From a virus: DNA of 20,086 nucleotides. Positions 405-18,160 of the stretch are shown here, in pieces. The stretch's first letter is position 1, and the number at the start of each line of letters is the position of its first letter. Both the position numbers and the translations under genes were made by a program. The notes below the pieces were generated by a model. It had not been told where the DNA came from. It saw nothing but the letters and a program-made list of their open reading frames with translations, and searched no databases. The stretch is taken from positions 1 through 20,086 of the IMG/VR virus record IMGVR_UViG_3300029319_000688. The stretch is one strand, 5' to 3'.

Positions 405-736
405 TATCTTTAAAGAATGTCGAAAGAACACCGAGTCGTATTCGAACTCGGTTTATTGCTGTCTTTGCTCTTGGAACGTCTCTTGCGACCTTTATATCAG
501 GTTTCTTTGTCTTTTTGTATATGAAGAGTCCTGCATTTGAGAATCAACTCACAGGACAGGTTATAAAGGATATGGATTGGATTATTGCAGATGAATTTGA
601 AAAGAAGATAAAAGAATTAAAACCAAGACCTGTTCCTGACCCTAACGACCCAAATGCTTGGTTTTGGGATTATATAGAGCAAAGAAATAAAGAGTATATC
701 GAATGGGAAACAAAAGGTAAGTGGGAGAACAACTAA
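401..736 (+). CDS. Single-pass membrane protein, unknown function (111 aa)
   Basis: The start ATG overlaps the stop of the preceding gene by four bases (ATGA). Residues 1-17 carry several Arg (PSRIRTRF). One hydrophobic segment follows at about residues 18-41 (FIAVFALGTSLATFISGFFV and onward). The remaining 70 residues are hydrophilic, with a Pro-rich stretch (KPRPVPDPNDPN, about 74-85) and an aromatic, acidic C-terminus. By the positive-inside rule the N-terminus would be cytoplasmic and the C-terminus periplasmic. It is not long enough for a structural protein of the kind found downstream. A lysis or membrane-remodelling role (holin- or spanin-like) is conceivable only from topology and late position. 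Its stop at 734-736 is followed immediately by the next ATG. Confidence 0.75.
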   Translation: MISLKNVERTPSRIRTRFIAVFALGTSLATFISGFFVFLYMKSPAFENQLTGQVIKDMDWIIADEFEKKIKELKPRPVPDPNDPNAWFWDYIEQRNKEYIEWETKGKWENN

Positions 737-1417: not shown

Positions 1418-1420
1418 ATA
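1413..1420 (+). promoter_or_regulatory. Candidate T4-type late promoter (GATAAATA)
   Basis: GATAAATA matches the T4 late consensus TATAAATA at seven of eight positions and overlaps the stop codon of the 226-residue gene. It lies 18 bases before the ATG of the 43-residue ORF. In T4 this box sits at -10 and is read by the gp55 sigma-like factor. Its placement between genes supports the call, but an A+T-rich background makes chance matches common. Confidence 0.5.
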
Positions 1421-1438
1421 AAATTAAAATGTAAAAAA

Positions 1439-1570
1439 ATGGTTATTAAAATGGATAAATCACAAGAATTTGTCAAATCTGGTCGAAAATTGATCAGTGA
1501 GTATGATGCAGACACTTATTATGAGGAAAAAGAGGAAGAAAAACCTCAATTTTTGAAAGAAGGCGAATAA
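1439..1570 (+). CDS. Small acidic hypothetical protein (43 aa)
   Basis: The frame runs from ATG 1439 to TAA 1568-1570. The peptide begins MVIKMDKSQEFVKSGRKLIS and then has an acidic run (EYDADTYYEEKEEEK) before QFLKEGE. There is no clear ribosome binding site. A second ATG at 1451 (MDKSQEF...) would give 39 residues and may be the real start. A candidate late promoter lies directly upstream and another overlaps its stop, so it may be its own small late unit. I recognise no family. Confidence 0.5.
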   Translation: MVIKMDKSQEFVKSGRKLISEYDADTYYEEKEEEKPQFLKEGE

Positions 1571-1573
1571 ATA
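1566..1573 (+). promoter_or_regulatory. Candidate T4-type late promoter before gp25 (AATAAATA)
   Basis: AATAAATA matches TATAAATA at seven of eight positions and overlaps the TAA stop of the 43-residue ORF. It stands 54 bases before the gp25 start, which would give a 5' leader of about 45-50 bases. The leader (1574-1627) is almost pure A/T, holds two TATAAT-like strings (1601-1606, 1614-1619) and shows no ribosome binding site or strong hairpin. This is the expected promoter position for a gp25-gp6-gp7 transcript. Confidence 0.55.
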
Positions 1574-1627
1574 ATCATAATATTAAAAAACCATTATACA
1601 TATAATAGCAAAGTATAATATATTTGA

Positions 1628-2029
1628 ATGCCTACCAAAATTTCTCGTGCTTTTAAGGACATAAGTTTATCTTTTACGAGACATCCAGTTACAAATGATA
1701 TCACCATTCTTAAAAATGAGGATGCGATTAAGAAATCTGTGACAAATTTATGTCGAACATCTGTAAATGAGAGATTTTTTAACCCATTAATTGGAACAAG
1801 GATAGGTGAATCACTTTTTGAAATAAATGATCCAGACATTGCTGAATTTTTGGAAGAAGACATTGAAAATACACTTAAAAATAATGAACCAAGAATAAAA
1901 GTTAAGTCTGTTGTTGCAAAAGCACTAATGGATTCGAATGAATTGGACATCAAAATAGAGTATGACATAGTTGGACTACCACTTCCATTGCAAAATATCG
2001 AATTTTTACTACAACCAAGCAAATTATAA
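1628..2029 (+). CDS. 25: Baseplate wedge subunit gp25 (133 aa)
   Basis: This is the T4 gp25 family (GPW/gp25), a lysozyme-fold protein of the inner baseplate that bridges wedge and sheath initiation. It starts MPTKISRAFKDISLSFTRHP. The family core follows: DAIKKSVTNLCRT (about 32-44), then ERFFNPLIGTRIGESLFE (about 48-65), with the R-F-x-x-P-x-x-G pattern. It ends with a beta-rich tail containing IVGLPLPLQNIEFLLQP (about 114-130). The length is typical for T4 gp25 (132 aa). No ribosome binding site is evident, but the N-terminus matches the family well. The TAA stop shares one base with the gp6 ATG (TAATG), as expected for coupled wedge genes. Confidence 0.93.
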   Translation: MPTKISRAFKDISLSFTRHPVTNDITILKNEDAIKKSVTNLCRTSVNERFFNPLIGTRIGESLFEINDPDIAEFLEEDIENTLKNNEPRIKVKSVVAKALMDSNELDIKIEYDIVGLPLPLQNIEFLLQPSKL

Positions 2030-3930
2030 TGTCATTTAATCAATTTACCAACTTAGATTTCAATTCGTTAAGGACTCAGATCAAAGATTACCTGAGAGGT
2101 AGTTCAAAGTTTACTGATTTTGACTTTGAGGGGTCAAACTTTTCTGTTCTAATTGATACTTTAGCATATAATTCATATATTACGTCATATAATACAAATA
2201 TGGCTGTAAATGAAGCATTTCTTGATAGTGCAACGGTAAGAGAGAATATAACATCATTAGCAAGAAATATTGGTTATGTCCCTCGTTCAGCAAGATCTGC
2301 GATTGCTAAAGTTAATTTATCTGTGGATTTTGGAACACAAGAAGCACTTTCTGCTACAATTAAGGCAGGAATTTTTGCAATTGGGTCAATTAGTTCTGGA
2401 AATTACGTTTTTTCTATTCCAGAAGACATCACAGTACCTACAAATACAGTTGTAAACAACGCAGCAGACTCAAAAATTGCAAATTTTACAAATATTTCAA
2501 TATATGAAGGTAATTATATCACAAAAAAGTTTATAGTTGATGCATCTCAGGTAAATCAAACATTTATTTTGGATAATAACAACATTGACACCTCTACAAT
2601 CCGTGTCGAGGTTAAAGATTCAAATGGTATTGTAGAAAATTATGAAGAATACAGAAATATATTTGAAGTAAATTCTAGATCTAGACTTTTTCTTGTACAA
2701 GAAATTGCAGATGAAAAATATCAAGTAATTTTTGGAGATAATCTTTTAGGTAAGAAACCAGAAAACGGAAGTGAAGTTACAGTTTCATATATCGTTAATA
2801 ATGGTATTGATGGAAATGGTGCAAATAACTTTACATTTTCAGGTAAAATCACATCAAATATCGGAGATGTAACAAGTGGTATATCAAACATAACAACCAC
2901 TCAGACAGCTGAAAATGGGGACGAGATAGAAAGTATAGATTCTGTAAAATACCTTGCTCCAAGAGTCTATGCGTCGCAGTACAGAGCAGTTACAGCAAAT
3001 GATTATTCAAGTTTAATACCAAGTTTATATGCAAATATCGACTCTGTGACTGCTTATGGTGGAGAAGAGTTAGATCCACCTCAATATGGAAGAGTTTATA
3101 TTACAATCAAACCTAAAAATGGAGATGTTATATCTGGAGCACTCAAAGATAATATTAAATCAAATTTAAAAAAATATACTGTTGCTGGAATTAAACAAGA
3201 ATTACTGGATTTAAAATATCTTTATGTTGAATATGAATCAACCGTTTCTTACAACGCTAGTTTTATTCCAGATAAATCAAATTTAGAAACAAGGATTGTA
3301 TCTGCAATTCAATCTTATTCAAAATCATCAGATATTAATTCATTTGGAGGTAGATTAAAATATAGTAAACTTCAATCTGTTATTGATAATGTTGATCAAG
3401 GAATTACATCTAACATCACAAACATTAAAATTAGAAGAAATTTAGTTCCTCTATATAATGAGTTAGCAAACTATGAAATTTGTTATTTAAATCAGTTTCA
3501 TGCAGATTTAGAAGGATTTAATGTTAAATCTACATCTTTCAAATTGGATGGAGTAAATGGTGACATATATCTCACAGACTTCCCAAATTCAGATCAAAAA
3601 ACAGGAGTTATTAAATTTTTTACTCTTTCTGATCTTGACGAAGTTATATACGTAAATCAAAATGCAGGAAAAATTGATTATATCAAAGGTGAAATAATTC
3701 TCTTTCCAGTGAATATTGTATCTACGGCTTTGAGTGGTAGAATTGAAATACAAGTTATACCAGAATCAAATGATATTATATCAAAGCAAAATTTATATAT
3801 TATTTTGGATACGTCAGCAAATAGTAAACTAACTTTAATTGAAGATGTAGTATCTTCTGGATCAAACAGGTCAGGAAACAATTATATGCCACCATCTAGT
3901 TTCATTAGTGGCAAAACGTATGTAAGATAA
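2029..3930 (+). CDS. 6: Baseplate wedge subunit gp6 (633 aa)
   Basis: gp6 is the core of the baseplate wedge. In T4 it forms the dimer whose N-terminal and C-terminal contacts join the six wedges into the iris-like inner ring. The N-terminal part aligns by eye with T4 gp6: DYLRGSSKFTDFDFEGSNFS (about 20-39) followed by VLIDTLAYNS, against T4 WLNGQNEFLDYDFEGSRLN and VLCDLLAYNT. NIGYVPRSARSA (about 80-91) corresponds to T4 NGYLPTSKSAA. A second block, QVIFGDNLLG then VTVSYIVNNGIDGNGANNF, corresponds to the T4 FYFGEG...IEYISTNGADANGAVGF region. The length is close to T4 gp6 (660 aa). Its ATG overlaps the gp25 stop, and its stop is separated from the next start by AAA only. Confidence 0.94.
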   Translation: MSFNQFTNLDFNSLRTQIKDYLRGSSKFTDFDFEGSNFSVLIDTLAYNSYITSYNTNMAVNEAFLDSATVRENITSLARNIGYVPRSARSAIAKVNLSVDFGTQEALSATIKAGIFAIGSISSGNYVFSIPEDITVPTNTVVNNAADSKIANFTNISIYEGNYITKKFIVDASQVNQTFILDNNNIDTSTIRVEVKDSNGIVENYEEYRNIFEVNSRSRLFLVQEIADEKYQVIFGDNLLGKKPENGSEVTVSYIVNNGIDGNGANNFTFSGKITSNIGDVTSGISNITTTQTAENGDEIESIDSVKYLAPRVYASQYRAVTANDYSSLIPSLYANIDSVTAYGGEELDPPQYGRVYITIKPKNGDVISGALKDNIKSNLKKYTVAGIKQELLDLKYLYVEYESTVSYNASFIPDKSNLETRIVSAIQSYSKSSDINSFGGRLKYSKLQSVIDNVDQGITSNITNIKIRRNLVPLYNELANYEICYLNQFHADLEGFNVKSTSFKLDGVNGDIYLTDFPNSDQKTGVIKFFTLSDLDEVIYVNQNAGKIDYIKGEIILFPVNIVSTALSGRIEIQVIPESNDIISKQNLYIILDTSANSKLTLIEDVVSSGSNRSGNNYMPPSSFISGKTYVR

Positions 3931-3933
3931 AAA

Positions 3934-6900
3934 ATGATCGGCACATCAAAATCTACAAAAGTCAAAATAACAAATATTCTTGATAGTCAAATACTAGACT
4001 TCATTCAAGAGGAAAGTCCCGATTTCAAAGATTTCTTGAGCCAGTATTATGCTTCACAGGAATCTGAATTTGGATCTACATATCTATCTGACAATTTAAC
4101 ATCATTTAAAGATATTAGTACTACTTCAAATAATATTTTAAATGTTAGTGTTCCAAATATTTTAGCTGCAGATCCATCAAGATCTTATGATTCTTCTATC
4201 AATGCTTTTGATGATGAAATACCAGTTACTACGACAGCTGGATATCCTGACCAATATGGTCTTTTTAAGATTGATAATGAAATCATAACTTACACTGGAA
4301 AAACTCCTACTTCATTTACTGGATGTATTCGTGGTCTTAGTGCAATATCATCAATTGAAAAGTCTGAATATCTTACATTTAGTGAAACTGATATTGATGA
4401 ACATTTTACAAATCTTCAAATTAATGTAGATAATGATGGTAATCGAATTATAGAGGAATATAAAGTAACTGTTGAAAGTAAAGATGAAACACATCCATAT
4501 TGGAAAGTTGGAAGTGATAATGGATATCTTTTAGACGGAAATCAATCACCATCACTAACTCTTTTACCTGGTCATACATATAAATTTAATCAATCAGATA
4601 TTTCTAACAGTGCACATCCAATCAGGTTTTATCTAGAGGCAAATAAAACTACTTCATATGGGTCAGAAATTATCGGTGGTGAGGAAAAACCTGCAAATGA
4701 AGTGATTTACTATGCAGATGGTATAAAAGATAAAGTAGATGAGTATTATAGTAGTTTTAGCACTGCTTCAGTTAGATATATTCAAATTACTGTAGATTAT
4801 GGCACACCTACAGTTTTGCATTATATGTGCACTAATCATGGTTATATGGGTAATGCTGCTCAAATTAATCAGAATGGTGGAAGACCTGTTTTAAATTTAA
4901 GCAGTATTTTTATAAATGAATTCTACAGAAAACATAAATCTCAGTTTTTACCAGGTTTTGAAGGAAGAAATTTCGTAGATCAGGTTAACATTGAAAATAT
5001 TTTAACAAGAGCAAAAGATTTTTATAGATCAAAAGGAACTGATACTTCTTTAGAAATATTATTTAAGGTTCTTTTTGGTAAAAGTGTAGTTATAGAAAAA
5101 CCTTTTGAAAATACAATTGGTTCTTCAGACTCTGAATGGGTAGTAACCGATAATATGATAGTGGATGTAATTGAGGGTGATCCATTTAAATTAATATCAA
5201 CTAAGATATTTCAAGGAACCTTTGATAATCCGACTGCAGATGGAACTATTTCAAATATTCAAGAAGTATTTTTAGGGTCAAAGAAATATTATAAACTATC
5301 ATTTGATAAATCTGCACATTTTGGTTCTTTTAATATTGGAACTAAAACAAAAATAACTGAAAAAGCACCAACTGGTTCATCTACTATCAATGTTGACTCT
5401 ACAGTTGGTTTTGGAACTACTGGAACATTCATATACAAATATCTTGATGAATTCTTAGTTGCATCATATACATCAAAATCTGAAAACCAATTTTTTGGAT
5501 GTACTGGTATTGTAGATGAAGGGATAGCAGAAAACAGTGATATCATAGATGATACTTTTATTTTTGGATATGAAAATGGTGATCCAGAAAAAGTGTGTAC
5601 CATGAGAATTACTGGAACGATATCTAAACCATCAGTAAATGTCAGTAATTCAAAATACGCTTCAGTTGGAGAATCAATTCGAGTAAATTATCTTGGAGAA
5701 AAAGCAACAGGACCTAAATTTGATACTTGGCTCTACAATCATTCTACTGTTTTAGATATTGAAGGTGTTTTTGAAGATACTGACAAAACTAATATCATTA
5801 CCACTAAAGAACCATTAACTAATTTCTTATATCAGGGATGTAAAGTTGATATTATTAGATATGATTGGGCAGGTAGTACTAATGATGATTCTCTTAGGTA
5901 TGTTCCAACTAGCGTTTCTATTCTTACTGAAGGAGTTGGATATAGTACAGCAACTGATGTTCCTACAAAATATGAATCCACCCAAACTGGGATTGGTACA
6001 AATTTAACTGTTGGAATTACTACAGCAGAAGGAAGTGATGGTGCAATAAATGGAGTTACAATTATCGATACTGGTATTGATTATAAGAAAGATGAACTAA
6101 TTGAAATTATTGGTGTTGGAGTTACTCCTGCAATTATAAAAATTGATGATGTTGCTCCTATTGGATTTGGTAAGATTCAACCAAATGATCCAGGATTTGG
6201 TGCATTTACAATTGTTGATACAGATGTTGAAATTTCTAATATTAATCCAGAAAATGGTAGAATAACTTTAAAAAAAGGAGATAAAGAGGATTTTGTTGAT
6301 AAAATTAGGCCGCATCAAATTAGAAAAAAATTAGCATATGCAGATTCTTCTTTGGATGAACTTTCTCCAAATTTATTGACTAACATACAAAATACTTATA
6401 TCGATGATGTTGGTAATACTTACGTAACTTTTTCAGGATATCCTTCTTACCCTTTAGAGTCAACAAATAGATCAGTAAAAGTAAGTAATTTTGCTGATAA
6501 TGAAGTTTTTATTGCTGATACAAATCATTCTTTTTTAAATGGTGAAAAAGTATTTTTTGAACAAAATCCATTAACAGTTACTACTGTAACTACCGTAACA
6601 GAAAGTGAAGAATCAACTGAAACAAATGTTTCAATTTCGACTTCATTTGGATTAGGAATAACTAATAGTCTGGGAAATGCAATTGAAAGTGGAGAATATT
6701 ACGCATCAATTGTAGGAATAAATTCATTTAGATTAGCGATTACTTTAGAAGAACTAAGAAGTGGAAATTTTTTAAAATTTAATCCACCAACAACAGGTAT
6801 ATCCACTGTAGTAGAGCAAACTGGTGTTGATGATCTTACCATTATGGCAAATGATATCGCTAACTTTAGTAATTTAACTGGAACTCAAATAACACCTGCT

Positions 6901-9900
6901 GGTGGTGGTGGGTTCGATATGGGTGGATCATATTTACATTTTGCTGCATCTTCTGGTTCAAGGTCTGCAACATTGAATAAAATAGATGCCAGAAACTTTG
7001 AAAAAATCAAAGTTCATGCAAAAGTAGGAAATGACAGTAATGGTGGTGAGGATCCTGATGCTCCTGGTGAGCAAATACAATTAGATTATAAAATTGATAA
7101 TGGAGATTTTGTAAGTGTTGGTACAATTATTCCATTATTGAGTAAAAATAATGCTGCACCAGTAAATGACCCAATTCAAGAAGGTGATTATAATGATGGG
7201 TCTTTAAAAGTATTTGAATTGGATATTCCAGATGGAGCTAAAAAAGAAAATGTATTTTTCAGATTTAGACAACCATCTCCTTCAGGACCTCAATATGATC
7301 ATTACGGTATTCAAAAAATTGAAATTACTGGAAGTGTTGCAGGAGTTACAACTACCACAACCACTTCTATAAGTGGAATAACTACTTGCATTATTACACC
7401 AAATGATTTAGCTAATAATATTTTATCAAATCAAAATCAATTTAAAAGAATATTAAAAACACCTGAAATTAGAGAATCAGAAAATAAGATAATTGGTCCT
7501 ATAGGTGTTCAATTAAATGGAGTTGAGTTATATTCTCCTGTCTTAGAAGATTTTGTATGTTATGGTCAAATTGATGATGTCGTTGTAACAAATAAAGGAG
7601 AAAACTATGATGTAGTAAATCCACCTAATGTATCAGTTGCTAGTACTAATGGAAGTGGAGCAAAATTATACGGACATTTTTCTGGAAATATTTCAGAAAT
7701 TGTTGTTACTCATCCTGGTTTTAACTATGTTGATACTCCTCAAGTTTCAGTAACAGGAGGAAATATAGATGCTTCGGGTAAAGCATTGGTGGGAGAAGCA
7801 TACATGAGGGGTTTCATACATTCTTTCTCATTCAATGATATTTCAAATTTAGTAACTAATATAGATCTTGATAAAGATAGTGTTATTCATGGAGAGGATA
7901 AACCTCATAAATTTGAAAATGGTGAAGAAGTAGTTTATACAACGACAGGAACTCCAATTGGAATTGGATCTACTGCTGTTGGTTTTGATACAAGTCGTTT
8001 GACATCAGGATCTACTTATTTTATTCGAAAAAATAGCGAAGCGTCTTTTTCCTTAACTGTTAACAAAAGTGACGCTTTATCAGGAATCAACACAATAGAT
8101 TTTAATGAATTTGGAACAGGAACTCATACTTTAAGATCTAAAAAAATTAGAAAAATAATTGATCGTATATCTCTACCAGAAACAGGATTAAAGTATCAAA
8201 ATAGAAAAGTAGTAGTTGATTCTAACATTTATCCACCAGAAGATCCAAAAGATAATTTAACAACATTTACTGGTATTAATAAGTACGATAATTATATTTT
8301 TGCGAAAAATCATGGATTTAGTGATGGAGATATTGTTGAATATAATTTTGATGGGACAATTATTTCTGGTTTATCTACAGAATCAATTTACAAAATTTCT
8401 GTCATTGATAACAATAAATTTAAATTAAGCGATGCAGGTACAGCAACAACTATCACAAATTCCAATTATAATCAAAAAATATATGTTGATTTAAATAATA
8501 TTGGTGTTGGAACTCATACTTTCAGATATCAAGATATTGTTGTTAACATAAAAGGAAATGTAAGTGCAGGACTAGTTACTTCAACACTTCCATCTTATTA
8601 TAATGCTACTGCTTATCCAGTTATTGATGGATCTTTAGATAATGTTTTCGTCCAAAATGGTGGTTCTGGATACGGAACAACTGATATTACAAATTATAAT
8701 ACTGCACCAACTTTAGCATTGGAAGGGGGACAAGATGCAGAACTAAGTCCAGTAATTGATAATGGAAAAATAGTAAATGTTTCAATTAACATTGAAGGCA
8801 CTGGATATTCTTCTCCACCAATACTAAATGTTGTTGGCACAGGAACAACTTTTGGAAAATTTGCTAAATTAAAAGCAAATGTTTCAAGTGTGGGAGTTAA
8901 TAGTATAACATCTGTTGATATTATTGATGGTGGAAAAGATTATATATCAGGAAAAACTGTCATAAACGTTGTTCCTAGAGGAGTTGATGCTAAGTTAAAA
9001 GCAAATGTTCATAAATGGAATATAAATGCAAAACAAAGATATTCTAGTGTATTGGGTAATAATATTTTTAAAGATACTACTCAAGTAAATGCTGAAGTTA
9101 AACTACAAAATAAAATAGTTGCCTTTTATGCAGGAATTGAGTATAGAAAATCTCTTAATGATAATATTAATGATGAAAACGATGAAATTACACCACCTCC
9201 AAAACACTCTCCCATTTTAGGATGGGCATATGATGGAAACCCAATATATGGACCTTATGGTTATGCGGATCCTGTAGCTGGTATTGGAATAACACAATTA
9301 TTTTCAAGTTACCAATTAAACAAAATTGAAGATAAATCTTTAAGACCTGATTTTGTTGACGGTTACTTTATTGAAGATTACTTGTATATTGGAGATAGGG
9401 AATTAGACCAATTTAATGGTAGATATGGACAAACACCAGAATTTCCAAATGGAACATATGCATATTTTACCACAGAAACTAAAACTTTATCACAATTCCC
9501 ATATACTACATTTATTCATAGAAATAAAACTGATGCAGTTAATTATGATATAGATTATAAGCAAACAGATAAATTTATTGATTCTGGTCTTTATAAAAGA
9601 AATGTATCACCATTAGGATTAAATGAAAAATTTAGAAATTATTTACCATTATCTGAATCTTTAGAAACAGATCCAGAACTAGAAGTTACTGCATGTTTAC
9701 CAGGAAAAATAAACCAAATTGCAACTTTTGAATCTGGTAGAGATTATAAAGTTGGAGACACCATCAATTTAAATGATTCTTTTGTAGATGCTAGTGTAGG
9801 TGAAATTTTAGGAAAAGAGATAAAAAAGGTTGAGGAAGTTGAAACTAATATCAATAATTTAAATTTTAGTGTTAAAGATAATGTTATCACTGCATCTGGT

Positions 9901-12900
9901 GATTCAATACATAATTTTTCAAATAATGACGTAGTTGAAATTTCAGGAATAACATCTTCCTCTTATTTTGGTATTCAAGGTCTTCAGAAAATAGAAGTTA
10001 ATACAACTTCAACATTTGTCTCTGTTGCAATTGCAGATACGACATCAACAGGAATATCAACTTCTATAAAGTTAGATGTATCAACAAATAGTGGCAAATT
10101 TAAAGTTAATGATGTTATTCAAATTGATAATGAGAAGATGTTAATAATTGGTTTAGATAAACTTAATGACAAGTATGTAGTTTCAAGAATGCATGATAGT
10201 TCAGTGGGAGGAACACATAATATTGATTCTACAGCAAATAAATTAGAAAAATCTTTTACTTATAAAGTTTCTGGAAAAGACATAAAAGATACAAACATAA
10301 ATGAAGAAAAAATAGCTTATGTAAATGTCACTAACTCCATTGGAATAGGGACAACATATACTAGTGTTGTAGTTGGAACTGCTGGAAGTAGTAATATTAC
10401 TAAATCAATTCCACCTAGAGCAATTTACATTCCTAATCATAATTTTAAAAATGGAGACAAAGTATCTTTAGTTTCCATTGGTGGTACTATTATTGCATCA
10501 AAAAATGATTCTTTAACTCCTGATTTTAATTTATCAACAATCAATCCATTATATTGTGTCAAAATTAGTAATAACTATATTGGACTTTCAACAGAGAAGG
10601 TAGGATTTTTAACATCCTACGTTTATTACAAGAGTGTTCAGGATAATGATTTCTTTGGAAAAGAAGTTCAAATTAAAACTAATGAAAATAAATTAATTGG
10701 TAGTGCAAAAAGAGTAAATGGATTAGTTACACTCGGAACTAGTCATAGTATTTCTGTAGATGAAACAATACGTTTAAATATATCTCCAAATAGAACAGAA
10801 AAAATTAAATTCAAATTTGATGCTAATTTGAGAAATTTAATTGTTAACCCTAAAACCTTTGAAAATACTGGAATAGGAACAACTTTATCTACGATTACAA
10901 TTCCAAATCATGAATTTGAAACTGGAGATGCGGTTTTATATAATGTTTCTACTGGATCTCCAATAAATGGTTTATCTGATAATAAAATATATTATGCTAT
11001 TAGAATATCAGAAAATATCATTAAGTTATCTGAAACTTATAAAAAAGCAACTAAAAAACGCTTTAAATCGATAAACATTACAGGTATAGGAAGTGATGGT
11101 ATTTTATCAAAAGTTAACCCCAAAATTCACATAACCAAAGGAAATACACTTGAGATTGATACGTCAGATTCAAGTTTAAAAATAAATGGTACTCCACTTA
11201 GGATAAATTTTTATAGTGATATCAATTTTACAGATAAAATTAGTTCAAATTATATACAACAAAATGGTGAAATTGGAGATGGTAGTGCTGACTCTAAAAT
11301 TATAATTAGAACTGGTGATATATCATTAGAAAGATTTTATTACAGAGTAGAAAATGATAACTTATCAGATAATTTTGCAAATACTGACATACAAAATCAT
11401 TCTACAATCGACATCATAGAGTCTAAATTTAATAGACTTCAAACAGTCACTGGGGTTGGAAATACAACAATAACATTTAATTCCAAAGTTGGAAGTGCAG
11501 AAACAACCACTTACAGTTCATATTTAAGTTCTGGATTTAGCACCGCTACTTATTCTACTAATGCGGTAAATGATCAAGGACCTATTGCTAACGTTAAAAT
11601 TATAAACTTTGGAAAAAATACAAATATCATACCATCTGTTACCTCAGTTGGTACAACTACTGGAGTAAATGCTGTTTTTTCAGTGTTGTCAAATGATATT
11701 GCTAAGATAGAAGACACTGATGTAACTGTTCAGGGATGGGAATTTAGTAAAAATAAATCACTAAAACCAAAAGCAGACACATATGCTATTTTAGATTTAA
11801 AAAATACACTCACTCTAAAATCAATAGGAGTTTCTACTGGGGGAAGAAACTACACAACACCACCAAAAGTAATAGGTGTAGGAAACACTATAATCACAAC
11901 AAGATCTAAAATTGATGGTAATTCTGTAAGTGGTGTTGATATCATATCAAATGATAGTGGTTTACAAGAAGATTTGAGAATTATACCAACTTTTAACTCT
12001 AATGGAATTAATATAGTAAATGCAACTTCTGCTAGTAAAAATTTAACATTAGAATTAAAAGCACCAATAGGTGGTCAATTTACAGATGGACTCCCATTTG
12101 CAGTTGGAGATAAAATTTTTGTAGAAAATGTGCAGATAAAAACTGTTCCTGGACTTGGAACAACAGATCTTGCTAGTTATAATTCAAGTGACTATGATTA
12201 TCGTTTCTTTGAAATTATAGCTGTAAGTAATGGAAGTGCATCTGCTAACCCCTCTGTGACATATTCTATATCTGGAATATCAACCACTGAAGCAGGTAAT
12301 TTTGATGGTAATTTTATATTTGGTAGAGTAACAAAAGCAGAAGATTTAGCATCATTTGAACCAGAGTTTCAAAGTGTAGAATATGTTAAAGGTGAGGTAA
12401 TATCAATAGGAAACGGAAAAGCAACTGCTATTGTATCTGAAAATGGTTGGGATCCACAATCTAAAACCTTAAAAGTAACTGATATAGTAGGAAAAATTGA
12501 TAATGGAGACGAAATAATAGGTTCTGTTAACAGTCAAAAAGCAATTATTAGTAATTTTAATACTTATGAATTTGATTTAGATGTAGATGTCTTTGCAGAA
12601 TCTTTGGGATTTTGGAAAAGTGATAAAAATAAACCTAATTTTAGTTACGAAAGACTACATGATAATGATTATTATCAGAGATTTTCATATGCTTTGAGGG
12701 GTCAAGTAGACTATGAAACATGGAAAGAACCAGTTAATAGTTTAGGACATATATCTGGATACAAAAATTTTGCAGATTATGAAATTGTTTCAAATACTTT
12801 TGTTGGAGTTAGTACAATACCAAAATCAGATGTTGAGTTTAGAGTTGAAATTTTAAGTGATGCATCTGTTCATGAACAATTTGATTATGATTTTGTATCT

Positions 12901-15900
12901 GAAGAAGAAACTTTGAGCAATATCATATCAAGAGAAGTACAGTTTGATCAGAAAAAATTAACTGATTACATTGAAGCTAAAACTAACAAAGTTTTATTAT
13001 TGGATGATATAAGTAATCAATTTACAGGATTGTCTACAATAACTGGACAGTTGGTAGGATTAAAGAATTTTACTATTAAATCTAGTGGTAACGATATAAT
13101 GCATCAAGTATTTGATCCTACAAGTTTAACTGTTGGTGGTAATACCATAAGTATTGTTGATCACGGTTTTACTGATGGAGAAGAATTGGAATATGCTCCA
13201 AATTCTGGAGGGTCAAGTATTGGAATTGTTACAACTAGTGCACCTGGAATTGCAGAAACAAGCATACTTCCATCAAAAGTTTTTGTTAATGTATCGGATG
13301 CTAATAATTTTTCACTAATAATAAAATCCTCAGAATCCGCTTCTGGATCAGCTGTTACATTTTCTAATGTTTCTGGTATAGGAAATCAACATACTTTATC
13401 TGTAAATTCAAGGGAAGCAAGTATAAGATCTTTAATTACAATCGATAATGTAATACAAAGTCCACTTGGTAAAAAATCTACAGTCCTTGGATTATCAACT
13501 AGTGTTGGTATTGGAAGCACTGAAATTTTCTTAAATGACATATCCAAAGTTTCAGGAAACAAATTATTAAAAATTAATGATGAAATAATGTTTACTGGTT
13601 TAGTTGGAATTGGTTCGACTAATTCTGTTTCTGTTGTTCGTGGATATATGGGAACTGTTGCTGCTGCACATACGGTAGGTGCTGGTGTTAGCGAATTATA
13701 TGGTGATTATAGAATATCTAAAGGTAATATTTATTTCTCTGATGCACCATACGGTCCCACAGGAATTGGCACTATTGCTGGTTCGAAAATAGAAGGTGGT
13801 GCGGTGGTTAATATTCCGAATGCAATGACCACAAAATCTGCATTTACTGGAAGAGTTTTCTTTAGAAAAAATGATGTTGCTGAAGGAAGACCAGGTAGCA
13901 TGAACCGTGTTGTTGATGATATATCTGATAATTTTGATGGAACTACTAAATTATTTGATATGAAAGAAAATAGTGCTGTTCTTCCAGTTGGAATAAACAC
14001 TTATGGTGGAGCACTACTGATTAATAATATATTCCAAAAACCATTCTTTGGTGATGTTGGATCAATTAGAGAATCTGATTATAGGGTACAAGCTCCTGTT
14101 GGAGGCGGTACAACAATACAATTCCTTGCAAACCCAGATATTGCTAGTGATACTACCGATATTCCTAGAGGTGGAAGAATCAATGAATTTTTAGTTGGTG
14201 TTGGTTCAGGATATCAGGTTCCTACTCGTGCTCTTGCTTATGCCAATATTGGCGTAGGTGGAACGATAGAATCAGTATCAATATCAACTCATGGTCAAGG
14301 ATATATAAGTGCACCAAGAGTAGCAATTGGTGTCTCATATGCAAACTACGTACATAAATTTATTAGATCGTTAGCAAATTCAATAAATCCAAATGTTGGT
14401 TCAAATAAAACACCTACATTTGCTGAATATGATTCATTTACTGGAGATTTATTTTTAGTAATTCCTAATCATGGTTTAACGACAACAAACACCATTCAAA
14501 TTGTAGATAACTCTTTATTCTTTACATGTTCAAGAGATGGATATGTCAAAGAAAAATCATATCCAAGATCTACTGATCCAGCATCAGGAAAAAATTTAAC
14601 TATTACAAATGCAACAACAAATACAATTATAGTTAATGTAGGTGCAGGTGCAGGTGTTGGTGCTGCGTTTACTTCAGTAGTAAGTGCAGCAGGTACGATA
14701 ACAGCGATCAATGTTGTTAATCCAGGAACTGGATATACAGCAACAAAAGATGAACCATTTATCACAATAGACGAACCCACTCCATATAAAAACATACCTT
14801 TACTTGGTGGAAATGGATCTGGGGCAAAAATGGATGTTGTTGTTGGAACTGGTGGAAGTGTAATTGATTTTAATATTGTAGATCGTGGTACTGGATATGA
14901 AATTGGAGATAATTTAGTTCTTCATGGTTTACCAGTTCAGGTTGGAGTATCTACAATTCCATTTAATATCACAGTTAAGAGTAGATATCAGGATAAATTC
15001 TCTGGATTTACTTTTGGTGAATTAATTGAATTAGATGATTTTAGTAGTTTCTTTAATGGTTTTAGAAGATCATTCTTACTTACAAGAACAATTACAAATA
15101 AAGAATATTTTAGTATTGTTGCTGCAGATGGATCTGGTATTGTTTTAGCAAATAATCTTTTAGTATTTGTAAATGATATTTTACAAAAACCAGGAGTTGA
15201 TTATGAATTTGAAGGAGGAACTAGATTTAAATTTACAGAAGCACCGAAAGCAGGAAGTAAATTTAAAATATATTTCTATAAAGGATCTGGAACTGATGTT
15301 GAATTTGTAGATGTTGATGAAACAATTAAACCAGGAGATATTTTAACTTTAGATGCATTTGACCAAGATAAAAATAACATAAATGAATTTCCAACTCAAG
15401 ATCCAAGAGTAATATATGAATTAACTTCTGCAACTGTTGTAGAAACTCAAACTTATACTGGACCTGGTATATCATCAGATCCTGATTACCTTAGACCAGT
15501 AAGATGGAAAAAACAAACAGTTGATAAAATTATTGATGGAGAAAAAATACAAAAAAATAGAAATTTAAATACTTCACAACAGTATCCAGCAACTAATATT
15601 ATTGCATCAATTAATCCAACTGACACAGTTTTTAGTGTTAAAGACATAGTATCTTTCAGTGGAATTGACAATTTAAGTGAAACACAAAATAGTATAAAAA
15701 TAATAGATCAAAAAGAGACACAAGTTGCCATAGCCACAGCCACTGTAGATTTAGCAACCCAAAAAGTTTCTACATTAACCTTAATTAATGCTGGATTCGG
15801 ATATACAACTGCACCAATGGTTGCTATTCAACCACCAAATGATGTAGGAACTGGTGTTACTGCTACAGCAGGTGCCACAATTGATGGAAATGGTGTTGTA

Positions 15901-16530
15901 ACTGGAATTGCCATTACAAATCCTGGTGATGGATATACATTTAACCCACAATTAGTTATTGAACAACCAAACATACAGTATGATGAAAAACATTCTAATA
16001 TTTCTTTCAATGGTGACAGAGGCATAATTATCGGAATTGGAACTACAAATCAAGGAAGCAATTCTGGAGTATCTACCGATTCGCCAGCACTAACTTTTGA
16101 TATCATTCCAACTAAACAATTACCAGGTGCACCTTCTACTAAATCTGGAATTGTTACTGGTCAATATATTGTAATTCAAGGAACTTCTTTTGGTGATGGT
16201 ATAGTATCAATTGGAACTCACACCAGTAAAATAGTTTCTGTTGGAAATTCATTTGCTGATAACGTATATCAAATTGGTCATTATCAAGATGTTGGAACTG
16301 GATCAACAGTTAGAAGAATAACCTGTAATATAAATACAGCATTGTCTGGAATTAATACAAATACTGGTGTAACCACCAATCGTTTCATTGGTAATTATAG
16401 TTGGGGAACAATTACAGTGGCTGGAAGTAGAAATGGTAAATCATTTGAATTTTACAATCAAAATGGATTATTGGGTATTGAAACTTCTGCTCATATTAGT
16501 AGATCACTCCAGTTAAAACAGGTTTATTAA
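3934..16530 (+). CDS. 7: Giant gp7-like baseplate wedge protein (4198 aa), multidomain mosaic
   Basis: This is one uninterrupted frame of 4198 codons (about 460 kDa), in the gp6-gp7-gp8 position. T4 gp7 is about 1032 aa. Conserved blocks match the T4 gp7 C-terminal part by eye: DSQILDFIQEESPDFKDFLS (17-36); AKDFYRSKGTDTSLEILFKV (360-379), against T4 YDFYSTKGIEASYKFLFKV; a GKATAIVSENG...IVGKIDNGDEI block (2828-2861); and YETWKEPVNSLGHISGYKNF (2927-2946), against T4 SRWKSDVIRFVHPVGFGF. Between these lie a cupredoxin-like domain (175-312), a reelin-like beta-sandwich (962-1134) and a YHYH domain (1755-1850). Also present are about fifteen GxGY-type repeats, eight NHxF-GD repeats, four IDNEI-type modules (110-134, 470-525, 2050-2090, 3190-3250) and three QKP modules (about 3170, 3360, 3745). 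A motif RWKKQTVDKIIDG lies at 3857-3869. The C-terminus (YSWGTI...GIETSAHISRSLQL) looks like a typical end for these proteins. The gp7 role is well supported; what the inserted domains do is unknown. They probably form peripheral decorations or host-contact surfaces. Confidence 0.85.
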   Translation: MIGTSKSTKVKITNILDSQILDFIQEESPDFKDFLSQYYASQESEFGSTYLSDNLTSFKDISTTSNNILNVSVPNILAADPSRSYDSSINAFDDEIPVTTTAGYPDQYGLFKIDNEIITYTGKTPTSFTGCIRGLSAISSIEKSEYLTFSETDIDEHFTNLQINVDNDGNRIIEEYKVTVESKDETHPYWKVGSDNGYLLDGNQSPSLTLLPGHTYKFNQSDISNSAHPIRFYLEANKTTSYGSEIIGGEEKPANEVIYYADGIKDKVDEYYSSFSTASVRYIQITVDYGTPTVLHYMCTNHGYMGNAAQINQNGGRPVLNLSSIFINEFYRKHKSQFLPGFEGRNFVDQVNIENILTRAKDFYRSKGTDTSLEILFKVLFGKSVVIEKPFENTIGSSDSEWVVTDNMIVDVIEGDPFKLISTKIFQGTFDNPTADGTISNIQEVFLGSKKYYKLSFDKSAHFGSFNIGTKTKITEKAPTGSSTINVDSTVGFGTTGTFIYKYLDEFLVASYTSKSENQFFGCTGIVDEGIAENSDIIDDTFIFGYENGDPEKVCTMRITGTISKPSVNVSNSKYASVGESIRVNYLGEKATGPKFDTWLYNHSTVLDIEGVFEDTDKTNIITTKEPLTNFLYQGCKVDIIRYDWAGSTNDDSLRYVPTSVSILTEGVGYSTATDVPTKYESTQTGIGTNLTVGITTAEGSDGAINGVTIIDTGIDYKKDELIEIIGVGVTPAIIKIDDVAPIGFGKIQPNDPGFGAFTIVDTDVEISNINPENGRITLKKGDKEDFVDKIRPHQIRKKLAYADSSLDELSPNLLTNIQNTYIDDVGNTYVTFSGYPSYPLESTNRSVKVSNFADNEVFIADTNHSFLNGEKVFFEQNPLTVTTVTTVTESEESTETNVSISTSFGLGITNSLGNAIESGEYYASIVGINSFRLAITLEELRSGNFLKFNPPTTGISTVVEQTGVDDLTIMANDIANFSNLTGTQITPAGGGGFDMGGSYLHFAASSGSRSATLNKIDARNFEKIKVHAKVGNDSNGGEDPDAPGEQIQLDYKIDNGDFVSVGTIIPLLSKNNAAPVNDPIQEGDYNDGSLKVFELDIPDGAKKENVFFRFRQPSPSGPQYDHYGIQKIEITGSVAGVTTTTTTSISGITTCIITPNDLANNILSNQNQFKRILKTPEIRESENKIIGPIGVQLNGVELYSPVLEDFVCYGQIDDVVVTNKGENYDVVNPPNVSVASTNGSGAKLYGHFSGNISEIVVTHPGFNYVDTPQVSVTGGNIDASGKALVGEAYMRGFIHSFSFNDISNLVTNIDLDKDSVIHGEDKPHKFENGEEVVYTTTGTPIGIGSTAVGFDTSRLTSGSTYFIRKNSEASFSLTVNKSDALSGINTIDFNEFGTGTHTLRSKKIRKIIDRISLPETGLKYQNRKVVVDSNIYPPEDPKDNLTTFTGINKYDNYIFAKNHGFSDGDIVEYNFDGTIISGLSTESIYKISVIDNNKFKLSDAGTATTITNSNYNQKIYVDLNNIGVGTHTFRYQDIVVNIKGNVSAGLVTSTLPSYYNATAYPVIDGSLDNVFVQNGGSGYGTTDITNYNTAPTLALEGGQDAELSPVIDNGKIVNVSINIEGTGYSSPPILNVVGTGTTFGKFAKLKANVSSVGVNSITSVDIIDGGKDYISGKTVINVVPRGVDAKLKANVHKWNINAKQRYSSVLGNNIFKDTTQVNAEVKLQNKIVAFYAGIEYRKSLNDNINDENDEITPPPKHSPILGWAYDGNPIYGPYGYADPVAGIGITQLFSSYQLNKIEDKSLRPDFVDGYFIEDYLYIGDRELDQFNGRYGQTPEFPNGTYAYFTTETKTLSQFPYTTFIHRNKTDAVNYDIDYKQTDKFIDSGLYKRNVSPLGLNEKFRNYLPLSESLETDPELEVTACLPGKINQIATFESGRDYKVGDTINLNDSFVDASVGEILGKEIKKVEEVETNINNLNFSVKDNVITASGDSIHNFSNNDVVEISGITSSSYFGIQGLQKIEVNTTSTFVSVAIADTTSTGISTSIKLDVSTNSGKFKVNDVIQIDNEKMLIIGLDKLNDKYVVSRMHDSSVGGTHNIDSTANKLEKSFTYKVSGKDIKDTNINEEKIAYVNVTNSIGIGTTYTSVVVGTAGSSNITKSIPPRAIYIPNHNFKNGDKVSLVSIGGTIIASKNDSLTPDFNLSTINPLYCVKISNNYIGLSTEKVGFLTSYVYYKSVQDNDFFGKEVQIKTNENKLIGSAKRVNGLVTLGTSHSISVDETIRLNISPNRTEKIKFKFDANLRNLIVNPKTFENTGIGTTLSTITIPNHEFETGDAVLYNVSTGSPINGLSDNKIYYAIRISENIIKLSETYKKATKKRFKSINITGIGSDGILSKVNPKIHITKGNTLEIDTSDSSLKINGTPLRINFYSDINFTDKISSNYIQQNGEIGDGSADSKIIIRTGDISLERFYYRVENDNLSDNFANTDIQNHSTIDIIESKFNRLQTVTGVGNTTITFNSKVGSAETTTYSSYLSSGFSTATYSTNAVNDQGPIANVKIINFGKNTNIIPSVTSVGTTTGVNAVFSVLSNDIAKIEDTDVTVQGWEFSKNKSLKPKADTYAILDLKNTLTLKSIGVSTGGRNYTTPPKVIGVGNTIITTRSKIDGNSVSGVDIISNDSGLQEDLRIIPTFNSNGINIVNATSASKNLTLELKAPIGGQFTDGLPFAVGDKIFVENVQIKTVPGLGTTDLASYNSSDYDYRFFEIIAVSNGSASANPSVTYSISGISTTEAGNFDGNFIFGRVTKAEDLASFEPEFQSVEYVKGEVISIGNGKATAIVSENGWDPQSKTLKVTDIVGKIDNGDEIIGSVNSQKAIISNFNTYEFDLDVDVFAESLGFWKSDKNKPNFSYERLHDNDYYQRFSYALRGQVDYETWKEPVNSLGHISGYKNFADYEIVSNTFVGVSTIPKSDVEFRVEILSDASVHEQFDYDFVSEEETLSNIISREVQFDQKKLTDYIEAKTNKVLLLDDISNQFTGLSTITGQLVGLKNFTIKSSGNDIMHQVFDPTSLTVGGNTISIVDHGFTDGEELEYAPNSGGSSIGIVTTSAPGIAETSILPSKVFVNVSDANNFSLIIKSSESASGSAVTFSNVSGIGNQHTLSVNSREASIRSLITIDNVIQSPLGKKSTVLGLSTSVGIGSTEIFLNDISKVSGNKLLKINDEIMFTGLVGIGSTNSVSVVRGYMGTVAAAHTVGAGVSELYGDYRISKGNIYFSDAPYGPTGIGTIAGSKIEGGAVVNIPNAMTTKSAFTGRVFFRKNDVAEGRPGSMNRVVDDISDNFDGTTKLFDMKENSAVLPVGINTYGGALLINNIFQKPFFGDVGSIRESDYRVQAPVGGGTTIQFLANPDIASDTTDIPRGGRINEFLVGVGSGYQVPTRALAYANIGVGGTIESVSISTHGQGYISAPRVAIGVSYANYVHKFIRSLANSINPNVGSNKTPTFAEYDSFTGDLFLVIPNHGLTTTNTIQIVDNSLFFTCSRDGYVKEKSYPRSTDPASGKNLTITNATTNTIIVNVGAGAGVGAAFTSVVSAAGTITAINVVNPGTGYTATKDEPFITIDEPTPYKNIPLLGGNGSGAKMDVVVGTGGSVIDFNIVDRGTGYEIGDNLVLHGLPVQVGVSTIPFNITVKSRYQDKFSGFTFGELIELDDFSSFFNGFRRSFLLTRTITNKEYFSIVAADGSGIVLANNLLVFVNDILQKPGVDYEFEGGTRFKFTEAPKAGSKFKIYFYKGSGTDVEFVDVDETIKPGDILTLDAFDQDKNNINEFPTQDPRVIYELTSATVVETQTYTGPGISSDPDYLRPVRWKKQTVDKIIDGEKIQKNRNLNTSQQYPATNIIASINPTDTVFSVKDIVSFSGIDNLSETQNSIKIIDQKETQVAIATATVDLATQKVSTLTLINAGFGYTTAPMVAIQPPNDVGTGVTATAGATIDGNGVVTGIAITNPGDGYTFNPQLVIEQPNIQYDEKHSNISFNGDRGIIIGIGTTNQGSNSGVSTDSPALTFDIIPTKQLPGAPSTKSGIVTGQYIVIQGTSFGDGIVSIGTHTSKIVSVGNSFADNVYQIGHYQDVGTGSTVRRITCNINTALSGINTNTGVTTNRFIGNYSWGTITVAGSRNGKSFEFYNQNGLLGIETSAHISRSLQLKQVY
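4456..4869 (+). other. Cupredoxin-like domain within the gp7-like protein
   Basis: Residues 175-312 have the order of a type-1 copper protein. It begins PSLTLLPGHTYKFNQSD, then SAHPIRFYL with His228. A Gly-rich insertion and a beta strand (RYIQITVDYG) follow, then LHYMCTNHGYMGN with Cys299, His302 and Met305. Those four are the expected ligands. The spacing C-x2-H-x2-M is shorter than the C-x2-H-x4-M of plastocyanin. The domain sits between the two N-terminal gp7-conserved blocks, so it is an insertion in the wedge protein. Confidence 0.7.
4984..5109 (+). other. gp7-conserved block, N-terminal piece (residues 351-392)
   Basis: The segment VNIENILTRAKDFYRSKGTD then TSLEILFKVLFGKSVVIEKP aligns without gaps with the T4 gp7 stretch around FYSTKGIEASYKFLFKVLYN, as I remember it. 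Shared features are F-Y-x-S/T-K-G, then L/F-F-K-V-L. This is the clearest single piece of evidence that the giant protein is a gp7 counterpart. Confidence 0.72.
6817..7335 (+). other. Reelin-like beta-sandwich module within the gp7-like protein
   Basis: Residues 962-1134 contain GGGGFDMGGSYLHFAASSG, then RSATLNKIDARNFEKIKVHA. NGGEDPDAPGEQIQLDYKID and an FFRFRQPSPSGPQYDHYGIQ segment follow. The order S-Y-L-H-F, R-x-A-T, I-x-F/V-H-x-K-x-G, N-G-G-E-x-P-D, E-x-I-x-L-x-Y, F-R-F-R-Q resembles reelin/BNR-like jelly-roll modules of carbohydrate- or protein-binding proteins. I infer a surface-exposed binding domain. The family name is tentative. Confidence 0.5.
9196..9483 (+). other. YHYH-type domain within the gp7-like protein
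   Basis: Residues 1755-1850 contain HSPILGWAYDGNPIYGPYGY (1758-1777), then a spacer and LDQFNGRYGQTPEFPNGTYA (from about 1824). Both are signatures of the YHYH domain family, found in many marine bacterial secreted proteins and phage structural proteins. The literal Y-H-Y-H tetrapeptide is not visible upstream; the equivalent place reads AFYAGIEYRK. The function of the family is not established. Confidence 0.75.
12391..12813 (+). other. gp7-conserved block, C-terminal piece (residues 2820-2960)
   Basis: The block has a strand-rich part (GKATAIVSENG, then TLKVTDIVGKIDNGDEIIGS) and then DYYQRFSYALRGQVDYETW followed by KEPVNSLGHISGYKNFADY. Trp2930, Lys2931, Val2934, His2939, Gly2942 and Ala2947 line up with the T4 gp7 pattern W-K-x-x-V-x4-H-x-x-G-F-x3-A. 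In T4 this block follows the FYSTKG block after roughly 100 residues. Here it follows after about 2,400. Confidence 0.6.
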
Positions 16531-16576: not shown

Positions 16577-18160
16577 ATGCCAGCAATAATAACAGATCAA
16601 TTTAGAATAGCAAATGCACAGACCTTTGTTCAGAGTTTTTCTGGTATTGGTACAACATCGTATTATTATGCTTTTTTATCACATCCAGAGGGAAATCAAA
16701 GTATATTAGATGGAGTTACACTTCAGAATTATAAATCTATAACTGGAACAACACCTGATGCTCCAAAAGATTCTTTTCAACAAGAAAATTTATATCATGA
16801 CACCATGTTATTTGCAAAAAGAATAACATCCTCCGATATAGCACTAGTCATACCAAATAGACCTTGGACATCAGGAGAAACATACGATATGTATAGGAAT
16901 GATATTGATATTGACAATAGAACAAATGTAACTAGTTATACTAATCTATATGATTCCAGATTTTATGCTGTAAATGATGAATTTAAAGTTTATATTTGTA
17001 TTAATAATGGGTCAATAGGTGATGAAAATGGAAAATTAATAGCAAAGAAATCTTTACAGAAACCAACACATGTGGATTTATCTCCACGTCCAGCTGGTGA
17101 TGGGTCTGATGGATACTTGTGGAAATACTTATTCACAATAAAACCAGCAGATATTATAAAATTTGGTACGGATGACTTTATACCAGTTCCTTCTAATTGG
17201 GGTGACAGCAATAGTATTGAAGTAAAAAATGCTGCAAAAGATGGTAAAATTGAAACTGTATTAGTAAAAAAACAAGGACAGGGTTATAAATTTGGTGCTT
17301 CAAGTAGCACAGTTATTGATAATGTTCCAATATATGGCGATGGAGATGGAACTGCAACTGCATCAGTAACAATTTCTGCTGGAAAAGTAACTCAAGTTGA
17401 TGTGACAAAAGGTGGAGAAGGATATACTCGTGGACATCTTGAACTGAATAGTTCATCTAGAGATAATGTAAATAAAGGTCCAACCGATTCAGGTCAAGCA
17501 GAATTTCAAGTTATAATTCCACCTCAAGGTGGTCACGGTGCTGACATTTATAGAGAATTAGGTGCTTATAGAGTTCTTTTACATTCTAAATTTGATGATA
17601 CAAAAGATGATTTGCCAGATTATGTCACTAGAAATAATTTTTCTAGAGTTGGTATTATCAAAAATCCAATTAAACAAGATGCAACTGGGTCTTCTTCAGT
17701 TTTGCTAAATACTACGACTGCAACAACTCTTGGAGCAATAAAATTAGCTGGTGATAGTGCATCTACTGAATATCCAATTAATAGATTAATAACTCAAACA
17801 CAAACTAATGGTGATGTGGCGGTTGGATATGTAGCAGAATTTGATAAAAATACTAACGTTCTAAGATATTATCAACCAGTTGGATTATCAACATTATCCG
17901 ATTATGGATACAAGTTAGTTGATTTTAAATCTGAAGCAGTATCGATTCAAGGATCAGGTGTTGTAAATCCACTACAGGTAGATACTGGTTTCAATGCTTC
18001 CAGTGTAAATGATGTAAACGTTGGTGTTTCTTTTGTTAATGGAATAGCAAAACCAGAAATTAAAAAATATTCTGGAGATATTATCTACATTGATAATCGA
18101 AATAAAGTTACAAGATCTTCTACTCAGAAAGAAGAAATTAAAATCGTAATAGAGTTTTAA
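16577..18160 (+). CDS. 8: Baseplate wedge subunit gp8 (527 aa), with internal insertion
   Basis: gp8 is a dimeric wedge protein that binds gp7, gp10 and gp6 in the T4 baseplate. Landmarks match T4 gp8 by eye. ITDQFRIANAQTFVQSFSGI (about 5-24) matches T4 VTSKFRTEKMLNFYNSIG. IALVIPNRPW (Trp97) matches LDAVIPRRDW. GSDGYLWKYLFTIKP (about 176-190) matches GDGYVWEYLFEIPP. KYSGDIIYIDNRNKV, with EEIKIVIEF at the very end, matches HSGEMIYMENRPP and EEINILFTF. T4 gp8 is 334 aa. The extra length lies mainly between residues 190 and 500, and includes two GxGY repeats (GQGY237, GEGY283) like those of the giant upstream protein. ATG 16577 lacks a strong ribosome binding site but is supported by the N-terminal match. 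Confidence 0.92.
   Translation: MPAIITDQFRIANAQTFVQSFSGIGTTSYYYAFLSHPEGNQSILDGVTLQNYKSITGTTPDAPKDSFQQENLYHDTMLFAKRITSSDIALVIPNRPWTSGETYDMYRNDIDIDNRTNVTSYTNLYDSRFYAVNDEFKVYICINNGSIGDENGKLIAKKSLQKPTHVDLSPRPAGDGSDGYLWKYLFTIKPADIIKFGTDDFIPVPSNWGDSNSIEVKNAAKDGKIETVLVKKQGQGYKFGASSSTVIDNVPIYGDGDGTATASVTISAGKVTQVDVTKGGEGYTRGHLELNSSSRDNVNKGPTDSGQAEFQVIIPPQGGHGADIYRELGAYRVLLHSKFDDTKDDLPDYVTRNNFSRVGIIKNPIKQDATGSSSVLLNTTTATTLGAIKLAGDSASTEYPINRLITQTQTNGDVAVGYVAEFDKNTNVLRYYQPVGLSTLSDYGYKLVDFKSEAVSIQGSGVVNPLQVDTGFNASSVNDVNVGVSFVNGIAKPEIKKYSGDIIYIDNRNKVTRSSTQKEEIKIVIEF

Follow-up and report, generated by a model that had tools for sequence, protein, structure and literature searches.

A giant gp7 of cyanophage-type T4-like phages with a wedge core very probably split at the domain V site

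The baseplate locus and the giant reading frame

The window (the whole stretch of DNA analysed here) is the IMG/VR fragment IMGVR_UViG_3300029319_000688, a single contig of 20,086 bases. Its gene order is gp25-gp6-giant ORF-gp8, followed by an open frame from position 18164, and the baseplate genes lie as follows:

1628..2029, + strand: gp25 (baseplate wedge); PF04965, phrog_261
2029..3930, + strand: gp6 (baseplate wedge; core-bundle partner of gp7); PF21379, phrog_219
3934..16530, + strand: giant gene of 4198 aa assigned to gp7 (baseplate wedge), between gp6 and gp8
16577..18160, + strand: gp8 (baseplate wedge); PF09215, phrog_438

An upstream ORF (737-1417) matches phrog_3704 (E 1.3e-112; PHROG label 'ferredoxin') without a Pfam match, and the frame that follows gp8 (18164-20086) matches phrog_358, a family of unknown function.

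The reading frame 3934-16530 is uninterrupted over its full length. PHROG 2885, 'baseplate wedge subunit', matches its product in seven stretches (E=0, 2180 bits), the best of which places residues 1143-3031 on positions 657-2546 of the 4179-position profile. None of the Pfam gp7 and Baseplate_wedge models PF21427, PF21428, PF21456 and PF23786 matches the window protein at E ≤ 1, and since the curated models PF21428 (Gp7_helical), PF21427 (Gp7_5th) and PF21456 (Gp7_6th) are among them, the protein is not filed as a gp7 of the T4 subfamily. Among related giant proteins, the Baseplate_wedge model PF23786 (cut-off 27 bits) stays below its cut-off with S-8S53 (21.5 bits) and contig L138 (19.2 bits), and gives no match with S-SSM7. 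The phage tail protein domain TIGR02242 reaches 14.6 bits on residues 355-403 of the window protein, below its cut-off of 51.85, and a phmmer comparison of the whole ORF with PDB chains yields nothing at E ≤ 1. By the profile and structure comparisons set out below, the 4198-residue protein can be divided into the following parts:

Residues 11-70, 3964..4143, + strand: core piece A (N-terminal helices); covered by positions 2-61 of the compact-homolog profile, E 0.042 when taken singly
Residues 71-315, 4144..4878, + strand: first core insert; gap between compact-profile pieces
Residues 327-398, 4912..5127, + strand: core piece B with FYRSKGTDTSLEILFKVL; profiles, slice scan, weak TIGR02242 match
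Residues 400-571, 5131..5646, + strand: N-side beta module of domain V type; VIA-align to 5iv5_BJ, hhalign 51%
Residues 572-2816, 5647..12381, + strand: large insert; block spacing
Residues 998-1131, 6925..7326, + strand: reelin-subrepeat-B-like domain PF21471; Pfam scan
Residues 1755-1851, 9196..9486, + strand: YHYH domain PF14240; Pfam scan
Residues 2817-2890, 12382..12603, + strand: C-side domain-V-type strands; hhalign to the second half of T4 domain V (T4 ~810-839), 70-80%
Residues 2891-2954, 12604..12795, + strand: core piece C, LHDNDYYQRFSY...WKEPVNSLGHISGY; profiles, slice scan, hhalign
Residues 2955-4198, 12796..16527, + strand: C-terminal tail past the core; remainder of the ORF

The N-side beta module contains a nested barrel-like stretch (residues 469-541), and no Pfam family matches residues 2890-4198 at E ≤ 5.

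The giant gp7 proteins of the cultured cyanophages S-SSM7, P-SSM2, Bellamy, S-8S53, S-CAM7 and P-RSM4, all PHROG 2885, show the same arrangement as the window protein. Inspection of the sequence had earlier suggested that the inserted region is a mosaic, a description that fits only part of it. Window residues ~1,190-3,030 are collinear with five of the six cultured proteins at 27-32% identity (P-SSM2 was compared over the first 4,896 of its 5,195 aa) and with the metagenomic protein L103 at 47%; P-RSM4 aligns to the window insert only in patches. The window protein differs from all six in two extra stretches. One, residues ~621-1148 with the reelin-like domain, gives no alignment above 60 bits to the six cultured proteins, and L103 aligns to its residues 817-950. 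The YHYH domain is also present in the gp7 of S-SSM7, S-8S53 and L138, i.e. in all three other proteins scanned. The second extra stretch, residues 160-315 (window 4411-4878), contains H228 and C299xxH302xxM305 (YMCTNHGYM), a pattern typical of the ligands in type I copper sites, and these residues suggest that the segment may be cupredoxin-like. Three of the 84 giant-insert ORFs contain the H...CxxHxxM pattern (the window, L009 and L014), and a similar pattern is observed in L242 near the C-terminus, outside the core. Pfam gives no match on segment 160-315 and AF2 did not fold it; a literature search linking cupredoxins with phage tails gave nothing relevant among the matches listed.

Correspondence of the separated blocks to T4 gp7

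In T4 gp7 the helical wedge core forms a module with two gp6 chains. The sequence-only reading had recognised two blocks of this core at residues 360-382 and 2927-2947 of the 4198-residue ORF, and block profiles confirm these positions, placing the T4 gp7 blocks at window residues 354-398 and 2908-2946. Block 1, FYRSKGTDTSLEILF, starts at residue 363, and block 2, WKEPVNSLGHISGY, at residue 2930 within a longer conserved stretch, LHDNDYYQRFSYALRGQVDYETWKEPVNSLGHISGYKNF. The T4 counterparts are located at ~729-758 and ~865-891 (ORF coordinates 744-773 and 880-906 less 15), with a spacing of 107 residues, in agreement with the distance of about 100 first estimated. In searches of 5,281 ORFs from 337 loci, the iterated block profiles find the FYxxKG...LFKVL helix block of the window with E = 7e-19 and, downstream of it, the YYQ..SY...VHPxGF block with E = 1.2e-18; among the same 5,281 ORFs the T4 values are 5e-12 for block 1 and 0.0077 for block 2, the latter weak when taken alone. 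A cyanophage N-terminal profile furthermore matches the solved structure 5hx2 at 729-759 (E 2e-5).

The overall likeness between the two proteins extends to their place between gp6 and gp8, the A-B-C order of the core pieces and the beta domain V (PF21427) lying between the B and C pieces. T4 gp7, however, comprises 1032 aa, with ~640 residues preceding the core and 107 between B and C, whereas in the window protein the core starts at ~11, 2,510 residues separate B from C and about 1,250 follow C. The T4 site between the blocks is occupied by domain V (PF21427 at 766-861), preceded by Gp7_helical at 643-689 and followed by Gp7_6th at 920-1012. Thus T4 has one domain at the insert site, while the cyanophages have many.

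For a scan of the entire giant protein, 59 giant-insert proteins were aligned and cut into 149 overlapping 80-residue slices, and each slice was matched by hhalign to segments of a T4-type gp7 alignment of nine members. The 59 rows comprise five cultured-cyanophage proteins and otherwise metagenomic ones; P-RSM4, near-duplicates and sequences that stop fewer than 80 residues past C were left out. The four best slices for T4 700-765, the FYSTKG segment, all fall within 301-440 (scores 54-71; next 15.4), and those for T4 853-908, the VHPxGF segment, all fall within 2861-3000 (24.7-32.3; next 19.0). The domain V segment of T4 (764-862) matches two places, with its second half at 2801-2920 (30-32) and its first half at 381-500 (25-27), followed by slice rows at 2761-2860 (score 22). 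Strands of domain V type are accordingly found on either side of the insert (Z 9.8; hhalign 51% and 70%), and because they flank both sides, the giant insert may either interrupt domain V or separate two copies of it.

Unsplit relatives, block spacing and predicted structures

Natural relatives with an undivided core allow the pieces to be compared with a contiguous template. In Ochrobactrum phage OC, a 631-aa protein is encoded between gp6 and gp8, and its first ~280 residues represent the whole unbroken core. A compact profile of 279 positions, built from eight natural unsplit-core proteins in which A-B-V-C are contiguous, matches the window protein in three collinear pieces with an overall E of 1.3e-16: the piece A match listed above, positions 56-198 on residues 327-473 (E 2.3e-9) and positions 176-275 on residues 2840-2947 (E 1.1e-4). 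T4 gp7 is matched once by this profile, at 647-758 (E 3.5e-7). In profile-profile comparisons with hhalign, the compact V-C region corresponds to T4 V-C in a single stretch (91.5%, E 8.7e-7), and window residues 2827-2954 match compact V-C (98.7%, E 4.6e-16); with block C removed, the match of the C-side V strands to compact V falls to 7%. The core had been described as kept in two distant pieces. It is indeed split, but into three, with a smaller second insert between ~70 and ~315.

A second profile, A1 (536 positions), combines compact and medium-insert homologs. Positions 3-70 of this profile recognise piece A of the window at residues 2-69 (E 3.3e-7), and in each of the six cultured cyanophages it locates A, B and C together in one ORF. 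Piece C of the window itself reaches only 5.4 bits (E 2.8) with A1, a result against the assignment. On the solved gp7 of 9f4a (6e-7) A1 covers 726-836 and, weakly (0.3 bits), 865-894, and on the T4 chain it gives no domain at the second block. Taken together, the compact profile, the 9f4a match, the slice scan and hhalign all point to neighbouring parts of T4-type gp7 as the counterparts of the two blocks, as had been supposed.

The compact and medium-sized gp7 proteins of phages of other hosts (OC, Cr30, Melnitz, Mosig; PF23786) share the core and the insert site with the window protein and differ in B-C spacing, which is 106 residues in Ochrobactrum OC, 380-557 in Mosig, Melnitz and Caulobacter Cr30 and 2,510 in the window. 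Altogether 265 ORFs contain both blocks, of which 201 remain after removal of 64 repeats; ORFs with one block (36 with B only and 27 with C only in a first count, many of them frames reaching a contig end) were excluded. The spacing is 100-150 in 10 of the 201 (including T4, 107), 150-300 in 2, 300-450 in 57, 500-653 in 48 (105 in total for 300-653) and 2,129-2,725 in 84, with none found among the 201 between 653 and 2,129; as the loci were chosen by their likeness to the window, OC or Cr30 (best 80 of 211, 225, 124 and 97 candidates), size classes may be missing from this series and the counts do not reflect how common each class is in nature. The 84 giants are the window, the six cultured cyanophages and 77 metagenomic contigs fetched as window relatives. 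In contig L102 (4639-14906) the giant gp7 is distributed over two overlapping frames, the first containing B and the second C, possibly through a sequencing frameshift.

In a tree of 87 block columns and 200 tips, from which rows with short blocks were dropped, the size classes change 8 times, compared with at least 66 times in 200 label shuffles. Of the 80 giants in the tree, 79 group together, with a support of only 0.40. P-RSM4, whose gp7 is the largest of the six cultured ones (6603 aa, spacing 2,725), lies outside the other giants and adjoins Melnitz and Mosig (support 0.89), and its giant gp7 may represent a second, independent growth.

Closure of the core around an insert was examined on AF2 models, calculated with alignments of 49 of 92 sequences picked (A1) and of the window plus 48 of 63 listed (A2). 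The model of a natural homolog, L207 (639 aa, insert of ~340 residues), has a mean pLDDT of 75; values exceed 80 in domain V and over most of the insert and are ~36-62 in the helical core. In a Foldseek search of the PDB with this model, only T4-type gp7 structures score below 1e-3 (5iv5_BJ, 8.7e-7; 9f4a_A0, 2.0e-6; 5hx2_A, 1.5e-4; next 0.09). VIA-align superimposes L207 136-566 on 763-850 of 9f4a (Z 10.3, rmsd 3.0, 88 residues aligned) and 139-560 on 765-843 of 5hx2 (Z 8.6, rmsd 2.3, 79 aligned), where the ranges denote the first and last aligned residue only. In the predicted L207 fold, residues from both sides of the insert are thus matched to one contiguous T4 domain. With 5iv5 the superposition spans B to C (83-612 on 718-888, Z 10.4, 155 aligned), but with an rmsd of 15.8, and given this and the low pLDDT of the helical core, the L207 model supports closure for domain V but not for the helical part. 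The idea that the distant pieces come together in three dimensions is therefore borne out in part, on a predicted model of a protein other than that of the window. The model of the window N-terminus (1-610) is poor (mean pLDDT 54.7; 161-314 below 50); Foldseek ranks T4-type gp7 first (E 2.5e-3) with no hit below 0.001. VIA-align places window 400-571 on T4 760-851 (5iv5_BJ; Z 9.8, rmsd 4.0, 89 aligned), in a top row nearly tied with unrelated chains (Z 9.5 and 9.3) that mainly match the nested stretch 469-541.

It is conceivable, though improbable, that both pieces derive from gp7 but no longer constitute one core, the N piece performing the wedge job and C being a copied or displaced motif that serves a different purpose. 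The domain-V-type strands flank the insert on both sides, as a duplication would give, and the V part of the A1 profile (about 144-229) finds further ORFs in these phages, as does the wider A1 part ~144-468 in cultured cyanophages. Such a loss of unity is at odds with the distribution of the blocks themselves: no ORF shows more than one B or C match, C comes after B in every ORF having both, and A-B-V-C are contiguous in the compact homologs. In each of the six cultured records the A, B and C parts of A1 match only one giant ORF, and no B or C part of the model was found in any other ORF of the 11 records searched. The alignment of L207 model residues from both insert sides to one T4 domain V likewise argues against it.

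gp7 in marine T4-like phages

The alternative that gp7 has been lost and replaced by an unrelated protein, VrlC, with the block matches being convergent, is very improbable. It goes back to a passage of PMC7029224 in which T4 gp7 is described as absent in pelagi- and cyanomyophages and apparently substituted by VrlC; a passage of PMC3037559 counts gp7, and also gp10 and gp12, among the non-cyanophage core genes. We reject VrlC as the gp7 replacement because profile, profile-profile and fold comparisons all point to gp7, as does the position of the gene. In the window the gene after gp8 (18164-20086) is separate from gp7, and the 'hypothetical protein' that follows the 'baseplate J domain protein' in Pelagibacter phage Mosig matches the gp7-core A1 profile at 3e-77. 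The present data contradict PMC7029224 on the absence of gp7 and qualify PMC3037559. In S-CAM7 the gene at the place of window 18164-20086 is labelled 'virulence-associated structural protein', and this protein is possibly the VrlC of PMC7029224.

That the giant ORF is an artefact fusing unrelated genes, as might be feared of a metagenomic fragment without another contig, is practically refuted by the genomes of the cultured phages, which have single giant genes at the same place (3007, 3891, 5195, 4067, 6603 and 4314 aa); nor can it be an assembly accident of one contig, since contig L009, which shares 99% identity with the window across the 78 aa surrounding block 2, encodes 4206 aa in one frame at nearly equal block spacing (2517 versus 2510).

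A search for a separate full-length gp7, which would have spoken against the split, reveals no second gp7 core in the six cultured cyanophage records (five titled as complete genomes and S-8S53 as partial); the phage of the window itself is represented by its 20,086-base fragment. In T4 the A1 profile has a single match, gp7 (3.6e-9). S-SSM7 encodes another protein annotated as gp7, SSSM7_103, of about 3,000 aa and located two genes downstream of the giant gp7. A1 matches only a module-like part of it (model 246-299, E 0.0014), with no A, B or C, and by these profile matches the label looks wrong. GenBank labels several of the giant genes 'gp7' or 'baseplate wedge initiator', so that their identity as gp7 is not new. 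Besides the Mosig protein, a 'hypothetical protein' of Methylophilales phage Melnitz matches A1 at 2e-94; judged from their sequences, both are gp7 orthologues and could be renamed.

The most satisfactory explanation of these observations, and very probably the correct one, is that the giant ORF encodes the gp7 orthologue of a cyanophage-type T4-like phage, with its core split by a chain of domains at the domain V site. The conserved helical wedge core would be kept, encoded as pieces 11-70, ~327-475 and ~2,817-2,954, while the domain V site would be filled by a domain chain of more than 2,000 residues. In the virion the pieces would refold into one core and the wedge would still assemble on gp7 and gp6. 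The inserted beta domains (YHYH and others) may project outward from each of the six wedges, much as the sequence-only reading had them looped out of the baseplate, and by analogy the insert might form a layer at the periphery that faces the host or bears fibres, with gp6 held by the closed core. According to PMC3004832, T4 gp7 is a monomer of which each tail contains six copies; it belongs to the wedge components, which assemble in strict order, and both its A domain and the gp10-gp11-gp12 module move upon baseplate opening. A comparable division on a small scale is found in the description of Vibrio phage XM1 in PMC10457771, where domain I of the gp7 orthologue gp17 (242 aa) consists of two stretches, 1-79 and 107-133, and the unresolved stretch between them is placed in tail-spike density; going by this published description, 27 residues separate the stretches in XM1 compared with ~2,400 in the window.

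Only with reserve can this be carried further, to the rather doubtful proposal that contractile baseplates in general use the domain V site of gp7 as an acceptor loop. Growth of this loop in marine cyanophages would then have led to a peripheral layer carried by a single gp7 chain in each wedge, within its own core, and doing what separate pin and short-fibre proteins (gp10, gp12) do in T4; during assembly the N end would wait for a C piece made ~2,400 residues later.

The split arrangement had been thought undescribed, and among the titles and abstract starts listed in searches of CC-licensed PMC literature no description of a split gp7 core in cyanophages was found. Nor was the present reading altered by PMC5349666, PMC12810830, PMC11406892, PMC6630229, PMC9004378, PMC6224464 and PMC2984593. 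The arrangement is not peculiar to the phage of the window, occurring in 84 of the 201 non-redundant homologs, and since domain V, of ~100 residues, already occupies this site in T4, what is new is how large the filling is and what it contains. Marine T4-like phages do possess the core baseplate gene regarded as 'missing', but in disguised form: a core of ~280 residues is spread over about 2,950 residues of the ORF and is thereby hidden from standard domain models. The arrangement also raises a question of folding, because translation reaches the last helix of the core about 2,400 residues later than the core's first part. A single insertion site, used across many T4-like phages, lets baseplates gain domains, and the natural zero-, medium- and giant-insert versions of gp7 make it testable which part of the protein serves assembly and which serves contact with the host.
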